From Alphaproteobacteria bacterium (GTDB lineage Bacteria > Pseudomonadota > Alphaproteobacteria > JAPYRI01): a DNA stretch of 36,309 bases. How positions within the stretch are numbered: position 1 is the stretch's first letter; each line of letters begins with the position of its first letter. The stretch lies in NCBI GenBank assembly GCA_029941135.1, contig JAPYRI010000022.1:1-36309 (forward strand). Direction: 5' to 3'. Under the pieces are notes generated by a model. It saw nothing but the letters and a program-made list of their open reading frames with translations. It was not told the origin of the DNA and did not search any database. This document shows positions 3,347 through 23,052 of the stretch, one piece after another. The translations under genes were made by a program, and so were the position numbers.

Positions 3347-3419
3347 TATTGATGGCTCCTTTTTCGGTCTTTTTGTGGCCTGCCCAAGGCTTTGGTTAAC
3401 GCTAAATATTGTGATCCGT

Positions 3420-5744
3420 TCATGCCGATACTCCCGTCGCAACTTCTTTTGACCGGTCCTTGCGGTCCAACGTCATCAACAATGTTGGAAGCAGGGTGAA
3501 GTCGATCACCAAAGCAACGGCGATGGTCATAGATGTGAGGAGCCCGAGGTGCTCGTTCATTTTAAAGTCTGAGAACGCGAGAACGCTAAAGCCGACGATC
3601 AACACCAAGGCGCTGATCCATATGGCCGCGCCGACGGTCGAGAACGCATAGCGCACGGCATCTTCAGGGGATTGACCGCGCTCGCGCCGGGCGCGCAAGT
3701 ATTTACTCAGGAAATGAACGGTCGCGTCGACAATTATGCCCAAGGCAGTGACAGTCACAAAAGCAACGGACCAGCCAACTTGGGTGCTGATAAGGGACCA
3801 CAATCCGAAGGCCATAAATGCCGGCACCATGTTGGGTATGATGCTGACCAAGCCAACGCGCACGCTGCGGAGCGCGAACAATAGAATGCCTGAAATCAGC
3901 ATGAACGCGGCCAACGTGCCATACAGCATGCTGTTCACGTTTTTGTCGGCTAAAAATGTGAACATCACGGTCGTGCTGGACGCCGGCGAAAACATATATT
4001 CCGGCAAGTTCTGATGTTGCCACTCTTCTGCCGTAGAGAGGATCTTCTTGGTTTCCTTAGTCGATATATCCCGTAACAGCACAGTCATGCGCGTCGCGGA
4101 TTTATCAACATTAATCTGATTGTTGAGATCCAGCCCATATGGCAGCGACATTTCGTAGAGCAACAGGTATTGAGCGGCGAGCTCGCGGTCATCGGGCAAC
4201 TTGTACCAGGCGTCATCGTCGCCATGCATGTTGCGGTTGAGACGGGTCATGATGTCGGTGAACGGACTGACATGAGTGACGTTGGGTTGTTGCTCAAACC
4301 AATCGGCGAATTTCTCGAGATTAGCCATATACTCGGGCTCGGCAATGCCGCCAGGCTCGATCGCCCGAAGCGAGTATTCGAGCGTGTAGACTCCGGTGAG
4401 GTTATCATTGGCGAAGTCAGCGCTATCTCGGAAATCAGTGCCTTTATCGAAGTAATGCACAAAATTTTCGTTCATCTCGAGCCGCGGAATGAGGGCGATC
4501 AAGGAGACCGCCGCAACCGATGTGAGGCAGAGTATAGGTACCCGGCGAGCAATCACGATTTCGGCCAAGTTATCTAGGAAAGAAGGTTTGCCGCTCTTCT
4601 GCGCCGGCGCGCGGACCGGCACTAAACTGATAACCGCAGGCAGCAAAGTCATGGAATAGGCCCAGGCAAGGATGGTTCCAATGGCCGCAATGTTGCCCAT
4701 GTCGCCGAACGGCGGTGCGTCCCCAAAATTCAGGCATGTGAAGCCAATCGCCGTCGTGAGACTTGTTAAAAAAATCGGCTGAGTATTGAGGCGCATACTT
4801 TCGATGATGGCGTTGTACTTAGGCAAACCTTCACGCATGGCGGCAAACATCGTCACCAGGAAGTGAACCGGATTGGCGACCGCGATGGTAAGGATAATCG
4901 TCGGCGCCATGGCAGACGGTGGCGAGAGTTCAACCCCCATCCACCCCGCAATTCCAATCGCTGTGCCTGCGGATAGGGCGACGATCACCAAGGTAACCGC
5001 AACACCCCAGAATGATCGTAAGAACACCACCATCGTAATTGCCAGAAACAGGTACATCAAAGGGGTGAGAACTTGAAGGTCGTAACTGGACACTTCGACA
5101 AACGCATTGTTATGGGGCGTATTGCCTGTCAATACGATGGTGAGATCGGGGTTTGCGTCACTGTACTTGGCGACCATGGCACGGGCATAAACCATGATCG
5201 GCTGTTCCGGGGATTTGGTGCCTTCGGGGATATTCATGGTGACAAAAATGCCGGTTGTCTTGCCGTCCGGCGATACCAGGCGTTTGGCAATTAACGGATC
5301 AGTCATCGCGACGTTTCGGATATAGGCGGCATCCTGTTCGGAAACTGATTGCGGATCGGGTACCAGATCGCGGACCGTCAGGTCGTCTTCTTCGGCATAG
5401 GTGTGTTGGTAATTGGTCACCGAATCGACCCGGCTGGAAAATGGTGCCAACCAGGCTTCGTCCGTCATTTCTTTGATGGTGCCCAAAACCCTGGGGTTGA
5501 AGATGTCGCCCTCATTGGCTTTGACGACAAACAGAATATTGTCGGTTTTAGTATATGTCCGTTCAATCAGATCGAAGGCTTTTAGATAGGGATTGTCAGG
5601 GCTGAAAAAGATGCGATAATCGCCATTGAAAGTAAGATACCGCGCTCCATTGACCATCCCGGCGGTCATCGCAATGGCGACCAGAATGACCAGCCAGCGG
5701 TAGCGAATTACCCATTTTCCAAATCCTATACTTACGTCGTCCAT
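3420..5744 (-). CDS. RND superfamily (MMPL-type) exporter, first copy
   Basis: This 774-residue RND/MMPL exporter has the same architecture as the next gene: an N-terminal helix, a periplasmic domain beginning FNGDYRIFF, a membrane bundle with NFGDAPPFGDMG, a second periplasmic domain, and a final bundle with VTVTALGIIVDATVHFLSKY. Blocks such as ERTYTKTDNILFVVKAN and PFSSRVDSVTNYQHT are shared with the second copy. The start lies only five bases after the TetR gene, so regulator and exporter are cotranscribed, and a 73-base gap separates it from the second copy. Whether the two copies act as a heteromer or on different substrates cannot be told from sequence. Confidence 0.88.
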   Translation of the reverse strand: MDDVSIGFGKWVIRYRWLVILVAIAMTAGMVNGARYLTFNGDYRIFFSPDNPYLKAFDLIERTYTKTDNILFVVKANEGDIFNPRVLGTIKEMTDEAWLAPFSSRVDSVTNYQHTYAEEDDLTVRDLVPDPQSVSEQDAAYIRNVAMTDPLIAKRLVSPDGKTTGIFVTMNIPEGTKSPEQPIMVYARAMVAKYSDANPDLTIVLTGNTPHNNAFVEVSSYDLQVLTPLMYLFLAITMVVFLRSFWGVAVTLVIVALSAGTAIGIAGWMGVELSPPSAMAPTIILTIAVANPVHFLVTMFAAMREGLPKYNAIIESMRLNTQPIFLTSLTTAIGFTCLNFGDAPPFGDMGNIAAIGTILAWAYSMTLLPAVISLVPVRAPAQKSGKPSFLDNLAEIVIARRVPILCLTSVAAVSLIALIPRLEMNENFVHYFDKGTDFRDSADFANDNLTGVYTLEYSLRAIEPGGIAEPEYMANLEKFADWFEQQPNVTHVSPFTDIMTRLNRNMHGDDDAWYKLPDDRELAAQYLLLYEMSLPYGLDLNNQINVDKSATRMTVLLRDISTKETKKILSTAEEWQHQNLPEYMFSPASSTTVMFTFLADKNVNSMLYGTLAAFMLISGILLFALRSVRVGLVSIIPNMVPAFMAFGLWSLISTQVGWSVAFVTVTALGIIVDATVHFLSKYLRARRERGQSPEDAVRYAFSTVGAAIWISALVLIVGFSVLAFSDFKMNEHLGLLTSMTIAVALVIDFTLLPTLLMTLDRKDRSKEVATGVSA

Positions 5745-5749
5745 ACGCC

Positions 5750-6427
5750 CTAACTTTCAGTTCCAATTTTTGCTTTTCTGCTGGTCCAATCGTCCGGTCG
5801 CAATCGGTCGAGGTAGCTGATGAATGCAGTCATGACGTTTTCCAGCAAGTTGAGGCTCTGTGCGGTTTTGGTGAGCGCGACAGAGCCCTGCCGCGTTGCG
5901 ATCATTAAAGTTGCTTCGGCGATTGGATCAATATCGCTGCGCACATACCCATTTTCCTGACCCCGGCGTAACGCGTCGGCCCAATTGTTGCGCCAAAGAG
6001 TTAGCAACGCGTCAATGCGGGTGCGGAACCCTTCGTCCACCGGCGACATTTCCTGACTGAGGTTTACCAAAGGGCAGCCAAGAGTCACACCTTGCTCGAG
6101 CATTCGATCCCGCTCCATGGTGCCGACGCGATGCATACATTCGATCGGATCTTCAGCGTTCTGAAGCGGTTCAATGAAGGTTTTTACAATGTAGTCGGTT
6201 ATAGGCTGGTCAAATACCGCGTAGCCGAGAGCCAATTTGTTGGGAAAGTGATGGTAGAGGGCGCCTTTGCTCACGCCCGCACCGGCCACAATACGCGACA
6301 AGCTTGCGGCCTGGAAGCCGGCGCCATGAATTTCGGTCAGCGCTGATTGAAGCAATGCCTGCCGCGTCCGATCACGCCGCGGGGCGGAGGATTCAGTGGC
6401 CGAGAAAAAGGGGCTGCCTGCAGACAT
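5750..6427 (-). CDS. TetR family repressor of the RND operon
   Basis: This 225-residue protein has a classical N-terminal TetR helix-turn-helix (about 18-64) reading ALLQSALTEIHGAGFQAASL, then RIVAGAGVSKGALYHHFPNK, followed by a variable C-terminal ligand domain. It is the first gene of the exporter operon and ends five bases before the first RND start. A palindrome overlapping the presumed promoter lies about 35 bases upstream. The arrangement is that of an autorepressor released by an exporter substrate or related ligand (inference). The C-terminal half contains CPLVNLSQEMSP, seen in the AcrR/NemR-like branch of TetR proteins. Confidence 0.87.
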   Translation of the reverse strand: MSAGSPFFSATESSAPRRDRTRQALLQSALTEIHGAGFQAASLSRIVAGAGVSKGALYHHFPNKLALGYAVFDQPITDYIVKTFIEPLQNAEDPIECMHRVGTMERDRMLEQGVTLGCPLVNLSQEMSPVDEGFRTRIDALLTLWRNNWADALRRGQENGYVRSDIDPIAEATLMIATRQGSVALTKTAQSLNLLENVMTAFISYLDRLRPDDWTSRKAKIGTES

Positions 6428-6458
6428 TGCTCTTAATTACATATAATAATGGATATAT

Positions 6459-6476
6459 ATACCGACCGGATGGTAT
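6459..6476. promoter_or_regulatory. Probable operator for the TetR of the RND operon
   Basis: The core TACCGACCGGATGGTA (6460-6475) is an imperfect palindrome of the ACCGACCGG-x-CGGT kind often bound by TetR-family repressors. It sits in the AT-rich leader of the TetR gene, next to a TATTAT-like element on the minus strand that could be the -10 box. The location fits autoregulation; binding is inferred. Confidence 0.55.
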
Positions 6477-6568
6477 GTAGGTGCAATAATGCATTTTGTC
6501 AAGGGAGTGTTCGCACGGGACCTCATGTTCGCAGCATTTTGGGAGGCGATTGCCGGTGAGTGTGGGTG

Positions 6569-6997
6569 TCAGTCGCCCAGCAAATGAACGACGACAGTTC
6601 GCCGAAGGGGCTGTTTTCGATGTTCAAACAAATAGATACCCTGCCAGGTCCCGAGCGCCAACAGGCCATCAAGCACCGGTATAGATAAATGAGTTTGCGT
6701 TAAGGCAGCGCGCAAATGGGCTGGCATGTCGTCCGGGCCTTCACTGCGATGCAAGTAACGACCCGGATCTTCCGGTTCGACTCGGCCGAAGTATACTTCC
6801 AGATTGGTTTGAACGGCTGGATCGGTGTTTTCCTGGACCAGCAATGAGGCTGAGGTATGGCGGACAAACAGCGTTAACAAACCTTCCTTTATGGCGGTAT
6901 CTGTAACCCAGTCTGTGATCTCTGTTGTGATGTGGTGAAGGCCGGGCTTCACAGTTTCGAAGGCAAGAGTGGTCGTATACTGGCGGATGGAGCTCAC
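6569..6997 (-). CDS. yjbQ: YjbQ family (UPF0047) protein
   Basis: This 142-residue protein matches the compact YjbQ/UPF0047 family over its full length, including VRHTSASLLVQEN near residue 45, the DDMPAHLRAAL segment around 88, and GTWQGIYLFEHR near 115. Family members bind metal through conserved His residues, and some show weak thiamin phosphate synthase activity; the true role is unsettled. The start is GTG at 6997, because the in-frame sequence further upstream is closed, and it shares the four bases GTGA with the stop of the FliL-like gene, giving translational coupling to that broken gene. Confidence 0.9.
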   Translation of the reverse strand: MSSIRQYTTTLAFETVKPGLHHITTEITDWVTDTAIKEGLLTLFVRHTSASLLVQENTDPAVQTNLEVYFGRVEPEDPGRYLHRSEGPDDMPAHLRAALTQTHLSIPVLDGLLALGTWQGIYLFEHRKQPLRRTVVVHLLGD

Positions 6998-7457
6998 ATT
7001 CTGGCGCCGGTGACGTGGGCGGAGCCAATAATGACGGTGACAGTGCTGTCGCCCAAAATCCAGTCGGTGGAACGTTGCAATAGTTTTTTCATTAACATAA
7101 TGCTCACTGGCTTGTTCGGGTTCATCTGATTGCTGGCATATCGGGTGAGTGTCCGAATATAGGCGTCGCGCAGCTTTGGCCGGACATTAACGACGCCGTC
7201 TCTCAAGTCCCGGCTGCCGGTCTCGAGAGACATGGATATATAGAGCAAGCCGCGTATTTTGCCATCTTGAATGATCGAGATGTTTAAAGGCTTTACCTTT
7301 ACATGGAGGATCCGACACCCTCGTCTGATTCTGAAGTATCCTCGTCTCCACCGCTGCCATGGCTGTCTGACGCATAGGCGCTGGTTGAAAACCGGCTCCC
7401 CAATGAAGGGATTATTGCAATGAGAATGGCGATAGCAATAACAATACTGCGGAACAT
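6994..7457 (-). pseudogene. FliL-like secreted/membrane protein, frameshifted
   Basis: Two frames together make one plausible protein. From ATG 7457 the first frame gives MFRSIVIAIAILIAIIPSLG (a signal peptide or anchor) and then a Ser-, Asp- and Gly-rich linker, and ends at a stop at 7299-7301. Shifting by -1 there gives VKVKPLNISIIQDGKIRG and a domain ending in DWILGDSTVTVIIGSAHVT. That order of anchor, acidic linker and KPLNISII-type domain resembles the small FliL-like proteins of alphaproteobacteria. A single-base loss next to a GTAAAG tandem repeat explains the break. It may be a recent mutation or a sequencing error. The uninterrupted 165-residue frame has an unnatural Cys- and Arg-rich N-terminus and was not accepted as is. 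Confidence 0.62.
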
Positions 7458-7551
7458 GGAGGCGCCTACACCGAAGATTAAGGGAGTGCACGGTATAGTC
7501 GTCAGGCTATTGAAAGAGTGTTAATTTAGGTGAAAACAGGGGCGTGATTGT

Positions 7552-8796
7552 ATGAAATCCATATTGATCAATGGGTTAGCTGGGGTTGCGTTGGCTGTTA
7601 TTGGGGCCCATTTCGCCCACGCAAAAGCTGCTAAACAGGAACCGCCGCCGGGTCATCGCCACGATCTTCAGGACAAACCATTAGCAAAGCCCTACACCAC
7701 GCCCAGCGCCGTCAATGGTCCGCGCGTCCGGCGCCGGCCAAAAAATATGAAGCCCCGCGCCCCTAAAGGTTTTCGCGTCAAACTGTTCGCCGAAGGGCTG
7801 ATAAGCCCCCGCAATATGGCAGTCGCCAAAAATGGAGATGTTCTGGTGATCGAAACCAGTCGTGGCCGGATCACTGTATTGCGCGACACTGATCGAAATG
7901 GTGTTGCCGACCAGAAAGAACAATTCGCGTCTGGACTGAGACAGCCTTACGGTATCGCGGTTCGCGAACCCTTTCTTTATGTGGCTGACTTGCGCGCCGT
8001 CTGGCGCTATCGCTACGTGGCCGGTCCGGGCGCGAAGGGTAGCCGCCCCCGACAGATCACCGAGGATGGGGCGATTGGTAACAGCAGTGGGCATTGGACA
8101 CGGAATATCGCCCTCGACCCGAATGGAGGTCATTTATACGTCGCCGTTGGCAGCCGCGGGAACGTGGGCGAAGAAGAACCGCCACGCGCGACCGTGCAAC
8201 GCTTTAACCTTGCCGGCAAGGACCAGCAAACATTTGCCTCCGGCTTGCGCAACCCAATCGGCCTCGCGTTTCACCCCACAACCGGAGATCTCTTTACTGT
8301 CGTCAACGAGCGCGATGGTCTGGGCGATGACCTGGTGCCTGACTATTTGGCAAAAATTGAAGAAGGCGATTTTTTTGGCTGGCCCTATAGTTATATTGGC
8401 GCCAATCCCGATCCAACTTTTGGCGACCGCCGGCCGGACCTGGTGTCGACCGCCAAAGTGCCGGAAGTCTTATTCCAATCTCACTCGGCGCCCATCGGCC
8501 TCACCTTCTATACCGGCAAGCAGTTCCCGAAAAGCTATTTGGGGGACGCTTTCGTTGCTTTGCACGGCTCGTGGAATTCATCCGTCGCCCGTGGCTATAC
8601 GGTGGTGCAGGTGCCGTTTCAAGATGGCAAACCAATAGGTTCTTACGATGTTTTCCTCAGCGGTTTTGTCGCCCGCGACAATGGTCGGCCCGAGGTTTAC
8701 GGCCGTCCCACGGGCGTCGCTGTGGCCGCTGACGGCGCCTTGCTGGTGTGTGACGAAGCGGACGGGGTTATTTGGCGGATCAGTTACGAACCCTAA
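7552..8796 (+). CDS. Secreted PQQ-dependent sugar (sorbosone-type) dehydrogenase
   Basis: This 414-residue protein has a signal peptide (about 1-24, ending HFAHA). The mature domain is the six-bladed propeller of the soluble glucose/sorbosone dehydrogenase family: GFRVKLFAEGLISPRNMAV at the first blade, VLRDTDRNGVADQ, then SSGHWTRNIALDPNG, ASGLRNPIGLAFHP, DFFGWPYSYIG and FVALHGSWNSS. Such enzymes oxidise aldoses or similar sugars in the periplasm with PQQ and calcium. The gene stands alone, with AGGGG about nine bases before the ATG, and converges on the biotinyl-carrier gene. The substrate is not determined. Confidence 0.85.
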   Translation: MKSILINGLAGVALAVIGAHFAHAKAAKQEPPPGHRHDLQDKPLAKPYTTPSAVNGPRVRRRPKNMKPRAPKGFRVKLFAEGLISPRNMAVAKNGDVLVIETSRGRITVLRDTDRNGVADQKEQFASGLRQPYGIAVREPFLYVADLRAVWRYRYVAGPGAKGSRPRQITEDGAIGNSSGHWTRNIALDPNGGHLYVAVGSRGNVGEEEPPRATVQRFNLAGKDQQTFASGLRNPIGLAFHPTTGDLFTVVNERDGLGDDLVPDYLAKIEEGDFFGWPYSYIGANPDPTFGDRRPDLVSTAKVPEVLFQSHSAPIGLTFYTGKQFPKSYLGDAFVALHGSWNSSVARGYTVVQVPFQDGKPIGSYDVFLSGFVARDNGRPEVYGRPTGVAVAADGALLVCDEADGVIWRISYEP

Positions 8797-8800
8797 TTGT

Positions 8801-8827
8801 CCTGAGTGGTGGGACCCTGCGCTCAGG
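8801..8827. other. Short hairpin at a convergent gene end
   Basis: CCTGAG (8801-8806) and CTCAGG (8822-8827) form a six-base-pair stem just after the dehydrogenase stop, overlapping the last codons of the opposing biotinyl-carrier gene. No T-run follows, so a role as terminator is only possible. Confidence 0.25.
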
Positions 8828-9041
8828 CGATGATTATGACGAGCTCGCCTTCGTCCAAACCTTCCTGCCCTTCCTCGATGTTGACTTGCTTAACCGTGCC
8901 GCTCGTCGCGGCGGTGTGGGGGACTTCGGTTTTCATTATTTCCATGATGAACAGAGTATCCCCTGCTTTTACCTCATCCCCTGGCTTTACCATCACTTTC
9001 CACATATTCCCCGGCACCTGGGTGACGACGTTTTCGGCCAT
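8823..9041 (-). CDS. Stand-alone biotinyl-domain carrier protein (BCCP-like)
   Basis: The protein has 72 residues from the ATG at 9041, which is preceded by AAGGA. A longer frame to 9146 adds a low-complexity basic leader without a ribosome site and is rejected. The whole protein is one biotinyl/lipoyl hammerhead: PGNMWKVMVKPGDEVKAGD, then MEIMKTE with the modifiable Lys at position 37 flanked by Met, then SGTVKQVNIEEGQ. MKT after the biotinylation Met-Lys points to biotin rather than lipoate. Small proteins like this act as the carrier of acyl-CoA carboxylases or related enzymes, but no biotin carboxylase or carboxyltransferase gene is in the window. Confidence 0.85.
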   Translation of the reverse strand: MAENVVTQVPGNMWKVMVKPGDEVKAGDTLFIMEIMKTEVPHTAATSGTVKQVNIEEGQEGLDEGELVIIIA

Positions 9042-9204
9042 TTTTAAGTCCTTGTTATCGTTCGTCCAAATTCGGCTGGCGCCGCTTGCCACACGCGGGC
9101 GCCGGATTAAAGCAGCAAATGCCCCCGGTGACAAAGGCGTTTCCATAGGTGCGGCGGATCGTTAGGATGCGGGCGCAGCGGGTATTGTTAAAGGAGCGCG
9201 TCCT

Positions 9205-10299
9205 GTGAAAATCGGAAAGTTCATGATGCCGAACCATCCCCCCGGCCGGGACTATGCCGAAGGGCACTACCACAACCTCGACACCCTTGAGTTTCTGGAT
9301 GGGATTGGATTTTCCGAAGCCTGGATCGGCGAGCATTTTACCGTTAAGCGGGAGCCTCTACCCGCTCCTGATCTTCTGATCGCCCAGGCGCTCATGAAAA
9401 CCAAGGACATTGTTCTTGCTCCGGGCGCTCACATCCTGCCGTATCACCATCCGGCCGAACTAGCCCAGCGGGTCGCCTGGCTCGACCATATGGCCCAGGG
9501 CCGGCTCATGCTGGGGGTTGGCTCGGGCGGAGTCAGCACAGACTGGGGCATGTTCAATGTGGACGGTGCGGCGGGGGAAGCGCGCGAGATGACCGCTGAA
9601 GCCCTCGACATTATGATGAAATTTTGGACCAGCGAAGCGCCGTTCAAGTTTGAGGGCAAGTTCTGGACTGTGTCGCGCCCCGAGGATCAACACGGCGGCA
9701 ACTTTGGCTTCCACTTAAAGCCGTTTCAAAAGCCTCATCCGCCGATCGGCATTGCCGGCCTCAGCTCCGGGTCGCCCACTTTGGCGATGGCGGGCACCCG
9801 TGGTTTCCTGCCACTCAGCCTGTGCCTAGGTACGGCGTATTTGGCGGGTCATTGGACGACGTATGCGCAGGCCGCCGAAGCTGCCGGACGTACACCATCG
9901 CGCAACGATTGGCGAATCGGCGTCGATGTTTATATTGCCGAAACCGACGCCGAAGCGCGCGAACAGGCTTTGGACAGCTTAATGGGGGACAGTTATCGCA
10001 ATTACTTATTGCCCCTGCTTAATCACTTTGGATTGATATCCGCATTTAAGCATGATCCAGACGTGGCCGACTCCGACGTCACTGTCGAATACTTGGCGGA
10101 CCACTGCTGGATTACCGGGACAACCGAGACCGTGATCAACAAACTGGGCGAGTTGGAAAAAACCTCCGGCGGGTTCGGCACACTTCTGGTGCTCGGCTAC
10201 GACCACCTGGATAATATGACCAGTTGGCGGGACAGCTTGACCGCTTTGATGACCGAGGTGGCGCCCAAGTTTAAAGACCTCGATCTGGCGGCCGAATAG
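9205..10299 (+). CDS. LLM class flavin-dependent oxidoreductase
   Basis: This 364-residue luciferase-like (F420/FMN TIM-barrel) oxidoreductase shows LDTLEFLDGIGFSEAWIGEH near residue 28, ILPYHHPAELAQRVAWLDHM near 80, then QGRLMLGVGSGG, and FKFEGKFWTV around 152. It is closer to the limonene-monooxygenase-like branch than to the DszA/NtaA proteins of the right half. Such enzymes use reduced FMN from a separate reductase, or F420, to oxygenate a small organic substrate. An AAGGAG lies about ten bases before the ATG. It is monocistronic and converges on the hydrolase gene; no shared operator of the right-hand island lies upstream. Confidence 0.85.
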   Translation: MKIGKFMMPNHPPGRDYAEGHYHNLDTLEFLDGIGFSEAWIGEHFTVKREPLPAPDLLIAQALMKTKDIVLAPGAHILPYHHPAELAQRVAWLDHMAQGRLMLGVGSGGVSTDWGMFNVDGAAGEAREMTAEALDIMMKFWTSEAPFKFEGKFWTVSRPEDQHGGNFGFHLKPFQKPHPPIGIAGLSSGSPTLAMAGTRGFLPLSLCLGTAYLAGHWTTYAQAAEAAGRTPSRNDWRIGVDVYIAETDAEAREQALDSLMGDSYRNYLLPLLNHFGLISAFKHDPDVADSDVTVEYLADHCWITGTTETVINKLGELEKTSGGFGTLLVLGYDHLDNMTSWRDSLTALMTEVAPKFKDLDLAAE

Positions 10300-10316
10300 C
10301 GGAGGCCTTCCCCCGG

Positions 10317-11180
10317 TTAGTCGTTTAGCGGAGCAAAGAATTTAAGTGCTTCGTCGGTCGCGAACTGGGGTTTTTCTTCGGCGATGAAGTGACCACATTC
10401 AGGCACCACGCCGCCTTCCACATTGTCGGCCACCTGTTGCCAGGCGGGCATCATATAATCTTGCAACAAATTACCCGCCCAGGCGAGCACCGGCATTTTC
10501 AGTTTTTTCGTGCACGCCGCCAAATTGATCATGTCTTCGCGAATGCCGGTCGCGTATAGCTGAAAACCTGCTTTCAACGCGCCAGGCGCCGAATAGACCC
10601 GCACGTATTCATCAATATCTTCGGTGGTAAAGACTGCCGGGCTGTAGTTATAAACCGTCGACCGGTAAAAATAAGTGAGATAGCCGCGCACATCGTGAGC
10701 GACCAGCTTGGCCGCCAGATCCGGGTTGCCGCCATGAAAAAACACGTGCCAAAACTTGGTTGCCATCTCGACCGGCATCGGCTCGCCAGCGCGGCCAAGT
10801 CCGGGGATCATGTCGAGGATCATCAAGCGTTCGACCATTTCCGGATGGTCGTAGGAAAGGTAATAACTGACCGCGCCACCCCAATCATGACCCACCAAAC
10901 CGATTTTTGAATACCCAAGCTTATTGACCAGTTGGTAGACATCGTCGGCGAGCGTCCGCTTGTCATACCCGGTGTCGGGGCGCCCGGAGTCGCCGAGGCC
11001 CCGAAGATCAACCGCAATCACCGTGTGTTTTTCCGCGAGCGCCGGAATGATCTTGCGCCACTCGTACCAGCTCTGCGGCCAGCCATGAACAAGCACCACC
11101 GGGCTGCCGGACCCGGCGATCACGTAGTGCATTTTAAATCCGTTAATCAGCGTGTGGTGATGTGTCCATGGCTCGGTCAT
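10317..11180 (-). CDS. Alpha/beta hydrolase, epoxide hydrolase/dehalogenase type
   Basis: This 287-residue protein has the motifs of the Asp-nucleophile alpha/beta hydrolases: HGWPQSW (32-38, oxyanion hole), the nucleophile elbow GHDWGG with Asp99, and the catalytic His264 in ECGHFIAEEKP. A cap domain occupies about 135-215. An Asp in the elbow points to epoxide hydrolase or haloalkane/fluoroacetate dehalogenase chemistry rather than esterase activity, and HGWP fits epoxide hydrolases best. No signal peptide is present, so it acts in the cytoplasm. It converges on the LLM gene with an 18-base gap. Confidence 0.85.
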   Translation of the reverse strand: MTEPWTHHHTLINGFKMHYVIAGSGSPVVLVHGWPQSWYEWRKIIPALAEKHTVIAVDLRGLGDSGRPDTGYDKRTLADDVYQLVNKLGYSKIGLVGHDWGGAVSYYLSYDHPEMVERLMILDMIPGLGRAGEPMPVEMATKFWHVFFHGGNPDLAAKLVAHDVRGYLTYFYRSTVYNYSPAVFTTEDIDEYVRVYSAPGALKAGFQLYATGIREDMINLAACTKKLKMPVLAWAGNLLQDYMMPAWQQVADNVEGGVVPECGHFIAEEKPQFATDEALKFFAPLND

Positions 11181-11213
11181 CGGTCGTCTCTCCCCAGTTA
11201 CATTTGGGGGATA

Positions 11214-12491
11214 CTACTGCATTGCTTCCGCCGGCATCAATCCAAGGCCCGCCAATCCACCCGTCACCAGGACGAGGATCACCACGACCCGGCCACGGCT
11301 AAGGGGCCCATGGCGGAGGGTATAATCGCCGTCCCGATCCCACACGGTTTCACCACTTTTGTTCAAATGGTTAAATGCAAGCAGCATGGTCAGAGGGTTG
11401 AGTACCGGAATCCCCAATCCCAGACCCCGGAAGTAGACGTCAAATCCACGCCACATGGCCTCTGAAAAATCCGGTCGCCTGCCGTCTTTTTTGAGGATGT
11501 TAATTTTAAACAACCACTTTCCGGGCGCTGTGCCACACCGTGACAGAAATGCAGCTTCGATGACCAGCCAGCCAATCAGCAAGGACGTGAGGCCGAGCAC
11601 GCTGGTTGATATTCTGTAGGGCATGAATGCCAGCAGCAAGACGGTCAGGCTGACGCCAAGGACAATGTCGATCCCTTTGGCGAAAGTGCGTATCCACGGC
11701 CGGGGAGGGTTAGGTGCACTATGGGATGGCGCGTTTTTCGTCAGGTCGTCGCGGTGGTTTAGGTTGATGACCGTGGTAGCGGGGGCGTAAGTGACAGTGG
11801 AATGCGCCCGCGCTAAAATCACGACCCGCAGGGTCCACATCAATTCCAGCACCAAGATTAATGTCGTCAGAAACTCGTTTAACTGAGCAAACAGAACAAA
11901 ATCGTAGAGACCATGTAGGGCAAATGGCACGTCAAACGCCATCCCCCAATATAGCGCCGGTGAATTGTTGTTGAACCGCGCTTGGGCCAAATACTAACCC
12001 ATTATAGCCCCGACAAATGCATGTGACGGTATGGCTGAATACAAGCGGGTATATGCCGTCACCAAGCCATCCGGTGCCGCCATCAATACGTACGACACAT
12101 TTTCGATGCAGGCAAAACCCAGCGCGGCAGGGGCGCCACAGGCCACACCATCCAAGGGCCGCTGAAAATGGCTTTGGCGCGCACAGTAGAAAAAGAGGAT
12201 GGTGAATCTGGCCACTTCCTCGGTGAACGCTGCCTCGATGAAAGCCTCTGCTAATTGCAGTTCAATGAATCCGGGAATGGCGGATGAAAAGTATTAGGAC
12301 AAGGTGGTTTCAATGACGCCAACCGGAAAGGCGATCAAAAAACCGAACATAAATGTTCGGTAAATAAATGTTCGATACTGAGCTGAAAGGCCCGTTGAGG
12401 CGGCGCTCAAGCGAGCGACGAGCCATACCAGCGCCACACAAGGTGCAACTGCTGCACTAATAGAAATAAGGGTGTCGAAGCCGAAACTCAT
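11214..12491 (-). pseudogene. PrsW-type intramembrane protease fused to an RDD domain, two in-frame stops
   Basis: One frame from ATG 12491 down to 11214 encodes a polytopic membrane protein interrupted only by TAA (12294-12296) and TAG (11994-11996). The front carries PrsW signatures: TEEVARFTILFF (the EE motif), GFACIENVSYVL, PSHAFVGAIMG, and after the second stop ALHGLYDFVLF. The back half is an RDD domain with RTFAKGIDIVLGV and GTAPGKWLFKINILKKDGR. PrsW proteins are membrane proteases related to site-2/Rce1 enzymes, and RDD proteins are membrane proteins of uncertain role. Each stop sits just before a Tyr codon and could arise from a Tyr or Trp codon by one change. No frameshift is present, which suggests recent inactivation. 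Internal restarts could make fragments, but both catalytic motifs would be split. Confidence 0.75.
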
Positions 12492-12535
12492 ACTCTGTAC
12501 TTGAACACACAAGTACTAATAAAACGCTTGCAGGC

Positions 12536-13021
12536 TCAGGCGGTTTCGTCCATCGCTTGTTCTAGTAATTCTAGTGCCTTGTCGGCAAACACCCACATGT
12601 TGCGCTCGCGGTTATCGTCGGCGGTTTCGAGAATAAGGCTCTTCTCCACCGGGCCAACGACGCACAAGGCCGCGTGGCCGGGGGCATTTTTGTAGGATCC
12701 AGTGGGCCCGGTAGCACCACTTTCGCCGATGCACCAGATCGTGCCCATTTTTGCGTGCAGCGCGCGGGCGAGGGTCAGCACATACTCATCCGTACTTGGT
12801 TTTATGCCTTTCATCGCCTCATCGGGTACTTGTAATAGGGCGCGCCGGGCTTCGTGGGTGTAGATAACGGTCGCGCCTAGGAAATACGCGGACGCGCCCG
12901 GCACCGCCAGCAACTGCGACGAGATCAATCCGCCGGCGGAAGATTCAGCGACGCAGATGGTATCACCGCGCGCTTTCAATCGCTCACCGATGGCGGCGGT
13001 TCTCTCAATCAAACTTTGCAT
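12536..13021 (-). CDS. pncC: CinA family amidohydrolase (nicotinamide-nucleotide amidase type)
   Basis: This 161-residue protein matches the stand-alone CinA C-terminal domain: TICVAESSAGGLISSQLL near residue 22 with the catalytic Ser, then PGASAYFLGATVIYTHEAR, and GESGATGPTGS near 98. The family deamidates nicotinamide mononucleotide in pyridine-nucleotide recycling. Length and motif spacing are normal. It reads towards the broken PrsW gene, and the ATG at 13021 lies 151 bases from the divergent MaoC start, so the two share a promoter region. Confidence 0.87.
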   Translation of the reverse strand: MQSLIERTAAIGERLKARGDTICVAESSAGGLISSQLLAVPGASAYFLGATVIYTHEARRALLQVPDEAMKGIKPSTDEYVLTLARALHAKMGTIWCIGESGATGPTGSYKNAPGHAALCVVGPVEKSLILETADDNRERNMWVFADKALELLEQAMDETA

Positions 13022-13172
13022 ACTTGTTCCTCAATTTTATTTGGGACGATGATAAGGGATCGCTTGCTCCTACGCCAGCGATGCCGCTCGCATTCAAATT
13101 TGATGGCTGATTTTCGTGCTGCCCACGGATAGAGTGGCCGCCCGTCGCAACCACGAACTGAGTTGAATAACG

Positions 13173-13616
13173 ATGCGCTACTTTGAAGATTTTGATCCGG
13201 GCGATGAATTTGAATTCGGCAACTATACGGTGACGGAGGAAGAAATCATTCGTTTCGCCGAGCAGTTCGATCCGCAGTCCTTTCATTTGGACAGCGTGGC
13301 CGCTAAGGAGTCAATATTCGGCGGCTTGATCGCCAGTGGTATGCACACGCTCAGTATCCTCATGCGGATGACAGTGGATGGGTTTTTAAACCAAGTTGCG
13401 GGTCTCGGCTCGCCCGGTATCGACGAGGCCAAATGGCTCGTGCCCGTGCGGCCTGGGGATACTTTGTCGGTGCATTTGACTGTTTTGGCAACGGTGCCGT
13501 CGCGCAGCCGGCCCGAACGCGGCGTGCTCAAGTTATCGACCGATGTGCTCAATCAAAACGGCGAGGTGGTTGCGGTCCAAAAAGGCTTGGTCATGGTGGG
13601 GCGGCGCCCCGCTTGA
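13173..13616 (+). CDS. MaoC-like (R)-enoyl-CoA hydratase
   Basis: This 147-residue single hotdog-fold protein has the hydratase signature FDPQSFHLD with the Asp33/His38 pair, followed by GGLIASGMHTLSILMRM and VRPGDTLSVHLTV. The family hydrates trans-2-enoyl-CoA or related thioesters. It is the first gene of a plus-strand run (MaoC, SDR, HTTM, DCC), and the SDR start follows 73 bases after its stop. MaoC plus SDR is a common pairing for hydration followed by oxidation of the hydroxyl, but both are broad families and the substrate is not evident. Confidence 0.88.
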   Translation: MRYFEDFDPGDEFEFGNYTVTEEEIIRFAEQFDPQSFHLDSVAAKESIFGGLIASGMHTLSILMRMTVDGFLNQVAGLGSPGIDEAKWLVPVRPGDTLSVHLTVLATVPSRSRPERGVLKLSTDVLNQNGEVVAVQKGLVMVGRRPA

Positions 13617-13689
13617 TCTGTTGTTATCGACCCGCACCGAGAAGCAGCCTAAAGTTACGATGAAAAAGCATTTAAGACGGGAGGACACT

Positions 13690-14502
13690 ATGGAAGACTT
13701 GGCCGGCAAGGTCGCGGTCATCACCGGCGGCGCAAGCGGCATTGGGCTCGCGACGGCGCGGGTATTGGCGCGGGAAGGCATGAAGCTCGTACTCGCCGAT
13801 ATCGAAGAAGGCCCGCTCGGCGTGGCGGTTGAAGAGTTCCGCGCTGCCGGCACGGACGTCATCGGGGTTGAGACCGATGTTGCCAACCACGCCAGCGTGA
13901 ACGCGTTGGCCGACCGAACCTTCGACGAATTTGGGGCGGCGCACGTGGTGTTCAACAACGCAGGTGTCGCTGTCACCGGGCCCACACAGGACATGTCCCA
14001 CGCCGATTGGGAATGGTCGATCAACGTCAATTTGTGGGGACCCATTCACGGAGTAGAGGCATTTGCCCAGCGGATGGCTGCGCAAAACCAAGGCGGCCAT
14101 ATCATCAACACGGCATCATTTGCGGGCCTCGTTGCGAACAAAGGGTTGGGCGCCTACTGCGTCACAAAATACGGCGTCGTTGCCTTGTCCGAGTGTTTGC
14201 AGAAAGACCTCAAACAGTATGGCATCGGGGTATCAGTGCTGTGCCCGATGATTGTTCGTACCAACATTCGACAATCCGCCCGCAACCGACCGGTTGAATT
14301 GGGGGGTGAGGATGAACAGGCGCCGGTATGGAGCAAGGAAGAAGAGGAAACATTGGTTGGCGGTACCATCGAAGCGCCCGAAGTTGCCGAGCGGGTTTTG
14401 CGCGCGATCCGCAATAACGAGCTTTACATCATCACCCACGATGCCAGCCGCGAATATGTCCGCCGCCGGTTTGACCGTATCGACAAGTCGTTCGCCATGT
14501 AA
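13690..14502 (+). CDS. Short-chain dehydrogenase/reductase (SDR)
   Basis: The protein has 270 residues from the ATG at 13690, preceded by GGGAGG at ideal spacing; longer frames reach back into the MaoC gene and are rejected. It has the Rossmann motif TGGASGIG (12-19), an Asp after the second strand (LADIEEG), which favours NAD, the NNAG motif, and the catalytic Tyr156-x-x-x-Lys160 in YCVTK with a Ser in NTASFAG. It is a classical SDR oxidising or reducing an alcohol/ketone. Position between a MaoC hydratase and an HTTM membrane protein suggests lipid or acyl-chain metabolism, but this is weak. Confidence 0.9.
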   Translation: MEDLAGKVAVITGGASGIGLATARVLAREGMKLVLADIEEGPLGVAVEEFRAAGTDVIGVETDVANHASVNALADRTFDEFGAAHVVFNNAGVAVTGPTQDMSHADWEWSINVNLWGPIHGVEAFAQRMAAQNQGGHIINTASFAGLVANKGLGAYCVTKYGVVALSECLQKDLKQYGIGVSVLCPMIVRTNIRQSARNRPVELGGEDEQAPVWSKEEEETLVGGTIEAPEVAERVLRAIRNNELYIITHDASREYVRRRFDRIDKSFAM

Positions 14503-14547
14503 CCGCATGTGACCCCGCTTCCCAGTCCGGGATACTGGAGACGAGAT

Positions 14548-15963
14548 ATGACGTTCACCGCATTTCAAGAGCGTATGTTCAGGCCGGTTGACGTGGCGTC
14601 ACTCGCCGTCTTTCGGGTTCTGTTCGGCGCGATCATGCTGTGGGAAGTCGTGCGCTACGCCGCTTACGGCTGGATCGGCAATTTCAGCGCGCGGCCGTTT
14701 CAATTTAAATATTTCGGCTTTGAGTGGATTGAACCCTGGCCGGGCGACGGTTTGTATTGGCATTTTGGCGCGCTCGGCCTGCTAGCCTTCATGATCATGA
14801 TCGGCGTGTTTTACCAGGTGGCCATGATCTTGTTTTTTATCGCCTTCACCTATGTCTTTCTGCTCGATCAAGCGAACTACCTTAATCACCTTTATCTGGT
14901 CTGTCTTGTTGCCGGCCTCATGTGTGTGCTGCCCGCCCATCGTGCGTTTTCGGTCGATGCCCGACTTTGGCCCCAAACCAGATCCGATACCGTGCCCGCG
15001 TGGGCAATATGGGCACTGCGGGTTCAGTTCGAGATTATGCTCGTGTTTGCCGGTCTGGTGAAACTCAATCCCGACTGGTTACAATTGCAGCCGCTAGAGT
15101 TGTGGCTCAGCGCCAAAACCGATTTGCCGGTTCTCGGCTTTCTCTACGGTCAGCGCTGGGTGATCGCGGTAGCGACTTATGGCACGATCGCCATTCATAT
15201 TTTCGGGGCACCGATGCTGTTCTGGCGGCGCGCCCGGATATATGTATTCGCGGTTTACCTGTGTTTTCATCTGGCCAACCATTTCACTTTTTCCATCGGC
15301 ATCTTTCCGTGGTTCACCATCGCCGGCACTTTGATGTTCTTCGAGCCCGATTGGCCGCGGCGGTTGATCGATCAATACGAGCGCTGGCGCCGAGCGGGTA
15401 TCCGACCCTGGATCGAGCGCGCCGATATGTTGGCGGAAGGTCGGTTTCACCGCCGCGAAAGAGAAATGCCTGCCAGTGCTCGCGCCGTGGTGATCGGTTT
15501 TTTTGGCCTGTGGTTTGCAATTCAGATGTTCCTTCCGGTGCGGCATTTTCTGTATCCCGGCAACGTGAACTGGACCGAAGAAGGATACCGCTTTGCCTGG
15601 CGCATGATGTTGCGCAACAAACCGGCAAGCGCAATTTTCTTTGTAACTGATCCAAGAACCGGGCAAGTCTGGCAGGTGAACCCCAAAGCCTATTTGTATC
15701 CGAAGCAGCTCCGTAAAATGCCCATGCAACCGGACATGATTCTCCAGTTTGCGCATTATCTGGCAGCCCAATGGGAGGAGAAATACGATGTCCCCAACGC
15801 TGAAGTGCGGGTGACGGTCACGGCTGCTTTGAACGGACGGACGCCGGCGATGTTGGTAGAGCCAACGCGCGACTTAGCCAAAGAGCTGCGCACTTTAAAA
15901 CATGTGGATTGGATCATGCCCTTCCCCGCGCCCGTGGTTCAGACTGCGGCGCGCCCAAACTAG
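14548..15963 (+). CDS. HTTM domain membrane protein (vitamin K gamma-carboxylase-like)
   Basis: The protein has 471 residues from the ATG at 14548, with GGAG eight bases upstream; an upstream GTG at 14509 lacks a site. It starts with the usual MFRPVDVASLAVFRVLFGA segment, has several membrane helices in the first 280 residues, and keeps the family marks DQANYLNHLY (His114) and FAGLVKLNPDW (Lys172), in line with catalytic residues of vitamin K-dependent carboxylase. The C-terminal part (about 320-471) is a soluble domain as in that family. Bacterial HTTM proteins are common but mostly without known function. The next gene encodes a DCC protein 14 bases downstream, a frequent partner. Confidence 0.87.
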   Translation: MTFTAFQERMFRPVDVASLAVFRVLFGAIMLWEVVRYAAYGWIGNFSARPFQFKYFGFEWIEPWPGDGLYWHFGALGLLAFMIMIGVFYQVAMILFFIAFTYVFLLDQANYLNHLYLVCLVAGLMCVLPAHRAFSVDARLWPQTRSDTVPAWAIWALRVQFEIMLVFAGLVKLNPDWLQLQPLELWLSAKTDLPVLGFLYGQRWVIAVATYGTIAIHIFGAPMLFWRRARIYVFAVYLCFHLANHFTFSIGIFPWFTIAGTLMFFEPDWPRRLIDQYERWRRAGIRPWIERADMLAEGRFHRREREMPASARAVVIGFFGLWFAIQMFLPVRHFLYPGNVNWTEEGYRFAWRMMLRNKPASAIFFVTDPRTGQVWQVNPKAYLYPKQLRKMPMQPDMILQFAHYLAAQWEEKYDVPNAEVRVTVTAALNGRTPAMLVEPTRDLAKELRTLKHVDWIMPFPAPVVQTAARPN

Positions 15964-15977
15964 AGCAAAGGGACCGT

Positions 15978-16406
15978 ATGATTTACTCGCAACGTCGCGA
16001 CGCCATCTCCGCCCCACTGGTGATGCTGTTCGATGGGGTGTGCCACTTGTGCAAAGGCAGCGTTCAGTTTGTTTTAAAACGCGACCCGCAGGCGCGTTTC
16101 CGATTTGCAACCTTGCAGTCCGACTTTGGCGCGGCGCAGCTTGAGCACTACCATATAACCGAGCGATCTCTCAGTTCGGTCCTGCTTGTGGAGGACGGGC
16201 AGGTTTATGAGAAATCGACCGCATTGCTCCGCATCGCCCGTAGTTTGAACGCCGGTTGGCCATTGCTCTATGGATTCCTAATCGTCCCGCGTCCGCTGCG
16301 GGATTGGGTCTATGACTTTATCGGCAACCGGCGTTATCGCTGGTTCGGTAAGATGAACCAGTGCTGGGTGCCCGACCAGGATGTGAGCGACCGATTTCTC
16401 GACTAG
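15978..16406 (+). CDS. DCC family thiol-disulfide oxidoreductase (DUF393)
   Basis: The protein has 142 residues from the ATG at 15978, with AAAGGGA upstream. It has the family start VMLFDGVCHLC with Cys22 and Cys25 in a CxxC redox motif, followed by SVQFVLKRDPQARFRFATLQS and the Ser-Ser-Val-Leu-Leu-Val strand, then the conserved end RYRWFGK. These thioredoxin-fold proteins are presumed thiol-disulfide oxidoreductases and often sit next to or are fused with HTTM proteins, so it probably serves redox chemistry for the preceding gene product. Its TAG stop interlocks with that of the convergent gene in the palindrome CTAG at 16403-16406. Confidence 0.9.
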   Translation: MIYSQRRDAISAPLVMLFDGVCHLCKGSVQFVLKRDPQARFRFATLQSDFGAAQLEHYHITERSLSSVLLVEDGQVYEKSTALLRIARSLNAGWPLLYGFLIVPRPLRDWVYDFIGNRRYRWFGKMNQCWVPDQDVSDRFLD

Positions 16407-16987
16407 GGCTTAAAATTGCCATCCACTTTGGTCCAACCCATTTCGTAACCGGCAAATAGGCTGACCCGCTTGCTCAAGGCCATATTGCCCGACACGCCGG
16501 CAAACGACGTCTGTGCTTCAGACCCAAATCCAAACAACCCGGTCTGGCGAGCGCCAAGTACTGCCCGGTCCTCATCGAGAATGCCGAGGTTTAACGCGAC
16601 TTTGATGCGCTCACCGACTGGGACCGCGGCGCGCAACGTATAGATATGTTGGCGGCGAAACAGCCAGGCATCGGGCCGGGCCCATGCGTATCCAGCCCGA
16701 TCAACGAAGCCTTGAAGGTACATGGTGTTGTGATAGGCGTCTCGCACACCTTGGCTGCGCGCATAGTCACCATTGTGATAACCTGGGAAGTAATCCCGCG
16801 TGGCCGCCGCCTCGGCAACCCAATAGTTCTCGTTGGGGTCCTCGAGCAAGGCGGCGAAGTAGGCAATCTGAGCTTCGTTTACCGAAAAGGGGGCTTCCAT
16901 AATCGACTCTCGCCCAACCCACTTCATGGCGTCTTCAATGGGTCCCTTAACGACATAAAGGGTAGGGTCGGCATAGTTATTGTGCAT
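16403..16987 (-). CDS. Chimeric protein: MaoC-like N-terminus with autotransporter-barrel-like C-terminus
   Basis: The protein has 194 residues from the ATG at 16987, preceded by GGGGG; a longer frame to 17020 is less likely. Residues about 20-120 resemble FAS1-like/MaoC acyl dehydratases: a GRESIMEAPFSVNEAQIAYF start, then DPNENYW and HNTMYLQGFVDRAGYAW. From about residue 140 the sequence changes to the style of an outer-membrane beta-barrel: FGFGSEAQTSFAGVSGNM, then VSLFAGYEMGWTKVDGNF, like strands from S8-type autotransporters. No signal peptide is present, and the barrel portion is too short to fold alone. A rearrangement that joined two unrelated genes, or a decayed dehydratase gene extended into foreign DNA, explains this best. 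The exact junction is not visible. Confidence 0.5.
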   Translation of the reverse strand: MHNNYADPTLYVVKGPIEDAMKWVGRESIMEAPFSVNEAQIAYFAALLEDPNENYWVAEAAATRDYFPGYHNGDYARSQGVRDAYHNTMYLQGFVDRAGYAWARPDAWLFRRQHIYTLRAAVPVGERIKVALNLGILDEDRAVLGARQTGLFGFGSEAQTSFAGVSGNMALSKRVSLFAGYEMGWTKVDGNFKP

Positions 16988-17140
16988 GATTGACCCCCGA
17001 TTTGAACTGTAGCGAGCCAAAGTAATAGTGAGAATTGAAGACTGCGGTCAACGGGTCATTTCAGACCATTATGACTCAATCATATAGTCTCAATATCAAT
17101 CATTCATTGGGTGCATTTTGCTCTTGTTCCTAAATTGAAG

Positions 17141-17287
17141 GCACGGCATTCACGGTGCCTGGGCCGACATAATCGTCAGCCAACTTAAGTTCAGGAGTAT
17201 GGTCGACAGACCCTTACCCTCTTGGGTCTATCGATTGGCCGCGGCGGGCCCCACCGGAGTTGCTCCGGTTCGCCGCGGCTATTTTTT
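17141..17287 (+). ncRNA. Candidate structured small RNA
   Basis: No gene covers 16988-17609. Within it a compact run of hairpins ends in a strong terminator: GGCAC/GTGCC at about 17140-17159, AGACCC/GGGTCT near 17205-17229, and the terminator stem at 17238-17279. A possible promoter precedes it: TTGGGT (17107-17112), an 18-base spacer and TAAATT (17131-17136), which would start the RNA near 17142. There is no good reading frame with a ribosome site in between. I cannot match it to a known family such as 6S, SRP or tmRNA. It could also be the remaining 3' end of a lost gene. Confidence 0.4.
17238..17287 (+). terminator. Strong Rho-independent terminator
   Basis: A nine-base-pair GC stem GCCGCGGCG (17238-17246) pairs with CGCCGCGGC (17271-17279). 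An inner stem ACCGGA/TCCGGT closes a five-base loop, and the run ATTTTTTATTT follows at once. The U-tract is on the plus strand, so it ends a plus-strand transcript, although no plus-strand protein gene lies immediately upstream. Confidence 0.8.
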
Positions 17288-17387
17288 ATTTAGACATTAG
17301 TTGAAATGGCTGCCCGGCGTCGCGCGGGTGGCGGCGCAAAAAACAGAATGGAGGAGGAGGCAGTCCTGAGCGAACTTGTCTCTGATG

Positions 17388-17530
17388 AATTTCCCTGTTA
17401 AGCGCCAAAATACAGGGAATTTATTCCGGTGAACCGGGAATCTTCTGGCAGGATCAGGGAATAATCGAGCGGGCCCGACTCGTCAAATTATGTCCGCTTT
17501 ACCCCCGAAAACTGATATTTACTTGTGTCC
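17388..17530 (+). repeat. Remnant of an alphaproteobacterial intergenic repeat with 21-nt periodicity
   Basis: Three copies of CMGGGAAT occur at 17413, 17434 and 17455, exactly 21 bases apart, and an inverted TTCCCTG at 17391 can pair with the first. One frame reads YREFIPVNRESSGRIRE, followed by a segment starting at 17490 that reads MSALPPKTDI. Short unconnected ORFs of this type, with REF/NRE repeats followed by MSALPPKAD, recur between genes in many alphaproteobacterial genomes and are thought to be translations of a dispersed element rather than genes. The family assignment is from memory. Confidence 0.5.
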
Positions 17531-17609
17531 AAAAGTTGATCCCTCTGCCCAGAATCATGCGCGACCTCAATCTCCGGGATGGCTTGATCGATGCCGCACA
17601 TTGCGCAGG

Positions 17610-18872
17610 CTAAGAGGCGCTCTTCGCCGGATCCCGCGGGTTGTCCCCGGCGGCGCCTCTGTCTCCATCTCGACGAGAGGCCGCTTCGGCAAGTTTCAGG
17701 TGACCGTCGCGTGTTTGTGGCAACTTGCGACCAAGAATTTTTGACGCGACCAACGTGCGGAGAACCCCCACGGTGCCGCCGCCGATGGTAAACATTCGGA
17801 CATCGCGGGCCATACGTTCAAGTGGAAGGTCCCGTCCGTAACCAATGGCCCCAAAGATTTGAAGAGCGTCGTTTACGACCTTGGCACCGCTTTCGGCCGC
17901 GAATATTTTTGCCTGTGCCGCCTCCAGAGCGTCGGGAAAGTCGTTGCCCGCCCGTCCGGCAGCCTTATAAATGAGCGCTTGGGCGGCGGCAATGGCGGTA
18001 CTCATGTCAGCCAGCGTCCACTGCAGTCCCTGAAATTCAGAAATCGGCCTGCCAAACTGTTCGCGTTCATTGGCATAGTCCAACGCCAACCCATAAGCGC
18101 CTTCGGCCAGGCCCAAGGCCACTGTGCCCGCGCCCACTCGCTGGGCGTTGTAAGCATTCATCAGGTCAGCGAAACCACGTCTAAAGCCGCCCGGTGGCAT
18201 AAGTGCCATCGTCGCAGGGACCTCCATACCCTCGAGGATAATTTCGGTCTCCGGGATGCCCCGCAGGCCCATGGCATAAGTCCTTCGCCCTACTTTAAGC
18301 CCCTTGGCTTCGCCACGAACCGCAATGAAGCCGCCAATGCCCAGATTCTCACCGTTCTCGAAGACGCGGGCGAAAATGAGATGCAGCTTGGACACACCAC
18401 CGCCGGTGATCCAATGCTTGCGACCGTTCAAAACATAAGTGTCCCCGTGTTTATCGGCTCGGGTAGTCATTTCCGTAGCCGCACTTCCGGCGCCAGGTTC
18501 GGTTATGCAGATCGCTGGCTTGTCTCCACTCAGCACTAGATCGGCAGCCAAATGCTTTTGTTCTTCAGTGCCGTACGCCATGATGGCGCCGATCGCTCCC
18601 ATGTTGCCCTCAACGGCGATCCGACTTGTGACGCCGCAGACTTGAGCAATTTGCTCAACCACGAGCACAGTATCCAAATAGCTAAGACCACCGCCGCCAT
18701 ATTCCCGCGGAATGGTCATGCCCATAAATCCCGCTTCTTTGAGGTCGGTAGCATTGTCCCACGGGTACTCCTCATCGCGGTCTATGCCGGCCGCCCGCGC
18801 GGCAAAGGTGCCACGTGCCAGTTCTCGGGCGCGATCCTGAAGCGCCTTCTGCTCTCTGCAAAGTTCGAACAT
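17610..18872 (-). CDS. Acyl-CoA dehydrogenase homologue, probable sulfinate-CoA desulfinase
   Basis: The protein has 420 residues from the ATG at 18872, with AAGGGAAAG upstream; the longer frame to 18977 has no site. The acyl-CoA dehydrogenase fold is clear: ITEPGAGSAATEM (124-136), GRKHWITGGG (150-159), EREQFGRPISEFQ, and ALQIFGAIGYGRDLPLER. The usual catalytic Glu of the EGT motif is missing (the site reads TIGGGT), and the alternative isovaleryl-type Glu before an Arg is Gln244 (AQR). An Arg lies at 84. In 3-sulfinopropanoyl-CoA desulfinase (Acd) of Advenella, as I recall, the Glu is likewise absent and Arg84 and Gln246 matter. The likely reaction is release of sulfite from a sulfinoacyl-CoA. 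The last 30 or so residues extend into a hairpin-rich repeat. Confidence 0.8.
   Translation of the reverse strand: MFELCREQKALQDRARELARGTFAARAAGIDRDEEYPWDNATDLKEAGFMGMTIPREYGGGGLSYLDTVLVVEQIAQVCGVTSRIAVEGNMGAIGAIMAYGTEEQKHLAADLVLSGDKPAICITEPGAGSAATEMTTRADKHGDTYVLNGRKHWITGGGVSKLHLIFARVFENGENLGIGGFIAVRGEAKGLKVGRRTYAMGLRGIPETEIILEGMEVPATMALMPPGGFRRGFADLMNAYNAQRVGAGTVALGLAEGAYGLALDYANEREQFGRPISEFQGLQWTLADMSTAIAAAQALIYKAAGRAGNDFPDALEAAQAKIFAAESGAKVVNDALQIFGAIGYGRDLPLERMARDVRMFTIGGGTVGVLRTLVASKILGRKLPQTRDGHLKLAEAASRRDGDRGAAGDNPRDPAKSAS
17614..17659. repeat. Large GC-rich hairpin at the end of the acyl-CoA dehydrogenase gene
   Basis: GAGGCGC (17614-17620) pairs with GCGCCTC (17653-17659), and inside it CGCCGG (17625-17630) pairs with CCGGCG (17647-17652). 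It overlaps the last codons of the dehydrogenase gene, which therefore ends in an unusual Arg/Asp/Gly/Ala-rich tail. It may be part of the adjacent repeat remnant or a transcript-end structure; no U-tract follows on the minus strand. Confidence 0.45.
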
Positions 18873-18970
18873 ATCTTTCCCTTCAATCGCACTGCGCCGG
18901 CAGCGCTCAATCTGTTTTTCGCAAATAAGATACAGCCGGGGGCATTGTAGAGATTTCTGAGTTCTTGACA

Positions 18971-18985
18971 TTGACATAATGCTAA
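18971..18985. promoter_or_regulatory. Island operator site 1 (TTAGCATWATGCTAA family)
   Basis: TTGACATAATGCTAA differs from the consensus at two positions. It lies in the 317-base gap between the divergent desulfinase-like gene (start 18872) and the first DszA-like gene (start 19190), 99 bases upstream of the former. A poorer partner, TTGACATAAATG, starts at 19057. Apart from these sites I see nothing else in the gap. Confidence 0.65.
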
Positions 18986-19189
18986 TTCTATTTTTGGGAT
19001 GTCACCGGGTAAGCGTGATGCGCCCACACAGGGAGCTGTCACTTAGCCAAATGGTATTGACATAAATGGCAGGTCGTTTGAGAGCAACCGTGCGGACAGT
19101 GTTTTGCCTCGCTAAGGAAGAACACGAATGCAACCGGCTTCGGTTCACGTTTTCAAGAACTAGCCGCAACCTAAATTAGAGGCGCAGCA

Positions 19190-20518: not shown

Positions 20519-20628
20519 TCTACTGGTGCGTCGTCCGATATCTTCACAGTCGTTCACGCATTCGAGTGATACGTAACTATTGCTTAAAAGCCGGATAGTT
20601 TCTGGGAACATTGTAATTGGGGAGTATC

Positions 20629-21855: not shown

Positions 21856-21870
21856 ATTCGAAGTCGGGCG

Positions 21871-23045: not shown

Positions 23046-23052
23046 CCTACTG

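Follow-up and report, generated by a model that had tools for sequence, protein, structure and literature searches.

PrsW of Bacillus subtilis acts as site-1 protease on the anti-sigma factor RsiW, and bacterial genes broken by nonsense changes are a familiar kind of pseudogene. The active site of PrsW is predicted, in an eLife model paper (PMC4602095), to consist of an EExxK motif, a His in TMH5 and an HxxxD motif. For RDD proteins, a second report (PMC5996927) deals with the roles of a hallmark Arg and two hallmark Asp residues, and presents the RDD protein of Halobacillus andaensis as a Na+(Li+,K+)/H+ antiporter. What should be made of a single reading frame in which a PrsW protease precedes an RDD domain and two stop codons interrupt the protease?

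Such a frame lies on the minus strand of the window, by which we mean the whole stretch of 36,309 nucleotides that was analysed. From an ATG at 12491 to a final TAG (11214–11216) it runs as one frame of 425 codons with no frameshift, cut by a TAA at codon 66 and a TAG at codon 166. The first-pass annotation had described two in-frame stops in an otherwise continuous frame, each followed by a Tyr codon. Both observations hold: the PrsW domain match spans the two stops, and the next codons are TAC after the TAA and TAT after the TAG. We consider the locus to be, very probably, an ordinary nonsense-broken pseudogene of a known protease family, unusual in its C-terminal RDD domain. Its features are the following.

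11214–12491, minus strand: whole interrupted frame, the probable PrsW-RDD pseudogene, 425 codons plus the final TAG (reading frame, domain matches)
12297–12491, minus strand: codons 1–65, from the ATG to the first stop, the ordinary translation product; in the alignment it corresponds to the N-terminus of the PrsW relatives
12348–12377, minus strand: in-frame 15-nt tandem repeat, 13/15 identical, codons 39–48 (repeat scan)
12342–12361, minus strand: terminator-like hairpin of 8 perfect pairs plus a run of T, within the frame and 5' of the first stop (terminator scan, folding)
11853–12368, minus strand: PrsW-protease domain (PF13367), codons 42–213, across both stops; 91.7 bits when read through, cut-off 23.5
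12294–12296, minus strand: in-frame TAA at codon 66, where the alignment column is poorly conserved (sequence and alignment)
11997–12293, minus strand: codons 67–165, PrsW core with EExxR (91–95) and His157 (alignment)
11994–11996, minus strand: in-frame TAG, codon 166, in a column that is F or Y in all seven aligned relatives (sequence and alignment)
11334–11705, minus strand: RDD domain (PF06271), codons 263–386, with hallmark R268, D275 and D385; 53.8 bits, cut-off 24.1, in the same frame as PrsW

Is the interrupted frame more than a chance opening? The domain matches and the codon score say that it is. By codon score it ranks best of six frames in each of three segments. Its values (0.07–0.13) lie below those of five window genes scored alongside (0.16–0.24), a sixth scoring -0.07; all six genes had themselves contributed to the codon table.

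A PF13367 search of the genome's own sequence returns 91.3 bits at this locus, with '1 TAG, 1 TAA' inside, and matches nowhere else, so no spare copy accounts for a harmless loss. Scanned singly against the NCBIfam PrsW equivalog model, the two stop-separated fragments reach 53.4 and 24.3 bits (cut-off 225). In an alignment with seven relatives of this class or phylum, the frame keeps EE 91–92, LGFA 124–127, EN 130–131, His157 and His193-x3-Asp197, and homology extends to the usual C-terminal region of PrsW. Compared with the active-site set predicted in PMC4602095, EE 91–92, His157 and His193xxxAsp197 are present, and Arg95 replaces the Lys of EExxK, giving EExxR, a variant also seen in two other sequences of the class. 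None of the seven relatives carries a stop. The TAG column is occupied in all of them and, together with the column of the following Tyr codon, holds F or Y in 7/7, so that a Tyr codon after the TAG is what the family would lead one to expect; the TAA column is a gap in two relatives, and the other five share no residue there. No translatable protease is left, since the TAA precedes all motifs and the TAG falls between the two His motifs, with no usable restart. The seven relatives agree completely in 39 columns; of these the interrupted frame keeps 28 and has changed 11. The same count for each relative gives zero or one change in six, three of which share one family and are not independent; the seventh, L014, shows 11/39, two gaps included, and is free of stops. 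By this count the protein would appear either diverged or starting to decay.

The RDD half combines a profile match above the cut-off with one Arg and two Asp at the hallmark positions, and it retains 12 of the 15 columns invariant in five relatives, whose own values range from 12/12 to 12/17. When the RDD half was searched against 58 genomes (its own and 57 of the same class), only its own copy was found; a scan of genome contigs with it gave one locus, a stand-alone RDD gene. The linker that joins the two parts is hydrophilic, contains proline, stays in frame and has no start codon.

Does the fusion occur elsewhere in intact form? A protein search of 385 genomes of the class matched 19, the own genome included, and leaving that one aside, no match covers both domains. 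With PF13367, the same 385 genomes yielded 26 rows in 22 genomes, again counting the own genome. An RDD profile scan of the frames at the 25 other rows and at three rows from the phylum search revealed no fusion, with some frames cut by contig ends and the doubtful locus L090 kept in the count. Using an RDD profile built from five relatives, the window protein scored 125 bits and the next best 3.4 bits (E 0.071). At the level of the phylum 398 genomes were sampled, in part the same as in the class sample; eight matched, the own one included, and no other fusion was present. The plasmid search gave five records, each matching a single half. A phmmer search of solved structures gave no match at E up to 1, and our literature searches returned no paper that pairs PrsW with RDD, or PrsW with 'domain fusion'.

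Three loci in these searches called for inspection. A row of the protein search in genome G041 reaches query residue 273, beyond a TGA; it was rejected as a fusion, since the frame up to the TGA (L073) holds no RDD. L090 is a weak PF13367 row (29.1 bits, one TAG inside), doubtful as a PrsW, and looks by eye like another transporter. In genome G335 an RDD frame starts at a contig end, so that an upstream fusion part could lie beyond the contig; no PrsW match was found elsewhere in that genome. The domain fusion noted in the first-pass annotation is thus real as sequence, with PF13367 and PF06271 in one frame, and its proposed check for intact fusions in relatives came back empty: none was seen in the samples of 385 class and 398 phylum genomes, where PrsW and RDD frames are found separately. 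Absence from these samples does not make the architecture unknown elsewhere, and the own genome is the sole representative of its order among those sampled. It is possible, though we hold the idea tentatively, that PrsW-RDD represents a genuine but rare architecture, a single chain in which an ion-linked RDD module gates the protease or is acted on by it; the fusion would then be intact in sister species outside the sample and lost only here.

The surroundings gave no help from synteny. Nine window proteins from nearby genes were compared by tblastn (E up to 1e-4) with the loci taken from other genomes, most of these loci spanning only about 1.5 kb per side; no shared neighbourhood emerged, the single hit being an SDR in L003. 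Scans of the window for tRNAs and for Rfam families at gathering score came up empty. On the plus strand, 14509–15963 encodes a protein with HTTM and vitamin K-dependent gamma-carboxylase lumenal domains, overlapped by a DCC1-like thiol-disulfide oxidoreductase frame at 15909–16406 (plus strand). Luciferase-like monooxygenases of PF00296 give 64 matches in the 3.0 Mb genome, six of them in the window (9205–34093).

Ahead of the first stop lie the tandem repeat and the hairpin. Identity of 13/15 between adjacent 15-nt units occurs in the whole window only at 12348–12377; the PrsW alignment has a five-residue insertion nearby, and the second repeat copy forms part of the 8-pair hairpin. A 46-nt stretch around the hairpin is more stably folded than any of 200 shuffled versions (z -3.9). 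The hairpin could bring about an early end of transcription, and we treat it only as a lead. Terminator-like sites in window positions 1–20000 number 28 against 23.2 expected, near chance. In the remainder of the window (20001–36309) such sites are above chance, 33 against 18.0 expected (sd 4.4, shuffles).

How recently was the gene lost? Single-base changes that create a stop amount to 131 of the 3,807 possible in the sense codons of the frame (3.4%), from which about 29 further neutral substitutions, with a wide spread, would be expected before a second stop, presuming that the first of the two killed the gene. At indel:substitution ratios of 0.1–0.05, a second stop precedes any frameshift with a probability of 0.34–0.51; over all settings (ratios of 0.02–0.2, two nonsense fractions) this probability is 0.17–0.72, the ratios being assumed values. 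The intact frame therefore says little about age. Two stops without a frameshift are unremarkable and do not by themselves demonstrate a very recent loss. The analysis supports the first-pass annotation as to a PrsW-RDD frame and a loss caused by nonsense; 'very recent loss' is not established, given these stop odds and the 11 of 39 invariant columns that have changed.

Other genes of this genome are broken in the same manner. In-frame stops were found in 4 of 48 PF00106 rows, representing three genes, as two rows on contig C4 adjoin. Two short-chain dehydrogenase genes with near-full profile matches lie on contig C29 (L097 2109–2678 and 5516–6100; G000:C29:19108–19677 and 22515–23099), one with an in-frame TAA and the other with an in-frame TGA. 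The third, on C4 (L098 887–1449; G000:C4:4886–5448), is a short-chain dehydrogenase pseudogene with several stops, split over two frames. Contig C29 also carries a tRNA-SeC, and the TGA in the dehydrogenase may for that reason deserve a look; the protein around it appears degraded by eye. No stops occur in 64 PF00296 or 18 PF07690 rows of the genome, nor in the eight other window genes from the family searches (one PF00106, six PF00296, one PF07690), and the consensus is therefore not generally error-ridden. Stop-broken genes are present elsewhere in the genome as a minor feature.

How, then, do the competing explanations compare? For an ordinary pseudogene speak the two stops within one PrsW match, the lack of any restart that would restore the protease, the lack of a matching suppressor anticodon among the 41 tRNA matches, and the three other stop-broken short-chain dehydrogenase genes. 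A slight addition comes from the stops of 25 window ORFs (12 TAG, 8 TGA, 5 TAA), 17 of which are TAG or TAA; this is weak evidence because ORFs end at stops by construction. The same reading has to accommodate 425 codons without a frameshift, a codon score favouring the frame in all three segments, predicted active-site motifs kept except for the Lys of EExxK, intact RDD hallmarks, the absence of stops from the PF00296 and PF07690 rows, and the lack of a second PrsW. Could the stops instead be base-calling or assembly errors, or the allele of a minority strain, with the gene intact in most cells? The assembly is a draft of 178 contigs with an estimated contamination of 2.81%, which would allow it, but two separate stops in one gene and eight stop-free window rows out of eight make this quite improbable. 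A related proposal concerns the fusion itself: during decay, a deletion may have fused an already decaying PrsW gene with an RDD gene next to it, in which case the fused protein never functioned. That PrsW and RDD frames are separate in the sampled genomes, with no other fusion, agrees with it. Against it, PrsW here reaches its usual C-terminal region and continues into a hydrophilic linker that contains proline, as one would expect of a working fusion, although the proposal still accommodates these features. We regard it as unlikely, although somewhat less so than a sequence error, and as a variant of the pseudogene reading that is compatible with it.

The two remaining alternatives would keep some product of the gene alive. 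Readthrough, programmed or by suppression, would yield the whole protein, for which an otherwise open frame and mostly retained motifs could be adduced. ARAGORN, run on all 41 tRNA places of the own genome, found no UUA or CUA anticodon, in an assembly estimated to be 95.26% complete, from which it is possible that a suppressor tRNA is missing; the one tRNA-SeC (G000:C29:2700–2792) serves UGA, not UAA or UAG. Two different stop codons would both have to be read, and from the tRNA set we judge recoding of the stops unlikely and translation of the whole protein by readthrough barely credible. Splitting of the gene, with a dead protease and an RDD half made from an internal start (for example TTG at codon 168, or ATG at codon 184 or 218), has in its favour that stand-alone RDD proteins exist elsewhere, that the RDD conservation is within the relatives' range, and that an ORF of 258 amino acids opens at TTG 11990. 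On the other hand, the stretch between codons 224 and 285, in which the RDD domain begins, is free of ATG, GTG and TTG. The RDD part thus lacks a nearby start of its own, and a product made from an internal start would have its N-terminus within the PrsW membrane region. Inspection by eye revealed no clear ribosome-binding site for such a start, and the sole promoter-like site in 11000–13400 sits on the opposite strand. We rate a separately made RDD half as very unlikely. A protease cannot be regained by restarting either, because the earliest in-frame ATG, GTG or TTG beyond the TAA sits at codon 93, where the catalytic Glu residues 91–92 have already been passed.

Under the pseudogene reading, the locus would once have encoded a PrsW-type intramembrane protease that carried a C-terminal RDD membrane domain, until nonsense changes killed the gene. 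Translation from the ATG at 12491 would give a 65-residue peptide that lacks catalytic motifs; judging from the positions of the start codons, the rest of the frame would go untranslated or be re-entered only where a complete protease is impossible. What is known of the two families suggests that the protein, if it once worked, may have cleaved, within the membrane, an anti-sigma factor or another membrane-anchored substrate, with the RDD part as a putative membrane partner or ion-linked module. A dead gene is of little importance on its own and adds one pseudogene case for the only genome of its order in the samples. The domain pairing is worth seeking in intact form: if RDD proved to be covalently tied to PrsW, this would hint at a role for RDD in intramembrane proteolysis.

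Like members of the PrsW family (PF13367), the locus has a domain match, here extending over both stops, and EExxK-like, His and HxxxD motifs in the expected places; unlike them, it has two in-frame stops, EExxR for EExxK, and an extra C-terminal RDD domain. It resembles the RDD family (PF06271), including the Halobacillus andaensis protein, in the domain match, the hallmark Arg and the two Asp, and it differs in that the RDD domain follows a dead protease within a single frame, with no start codon of its own near the domain's beginning. In common with bacterial nonsense pseudogenes, homology flanks the in-frame stops and other such genes are found in the genome, whereas here two stops have accumulated without a frameshift and most of the catalytic motifs remain.
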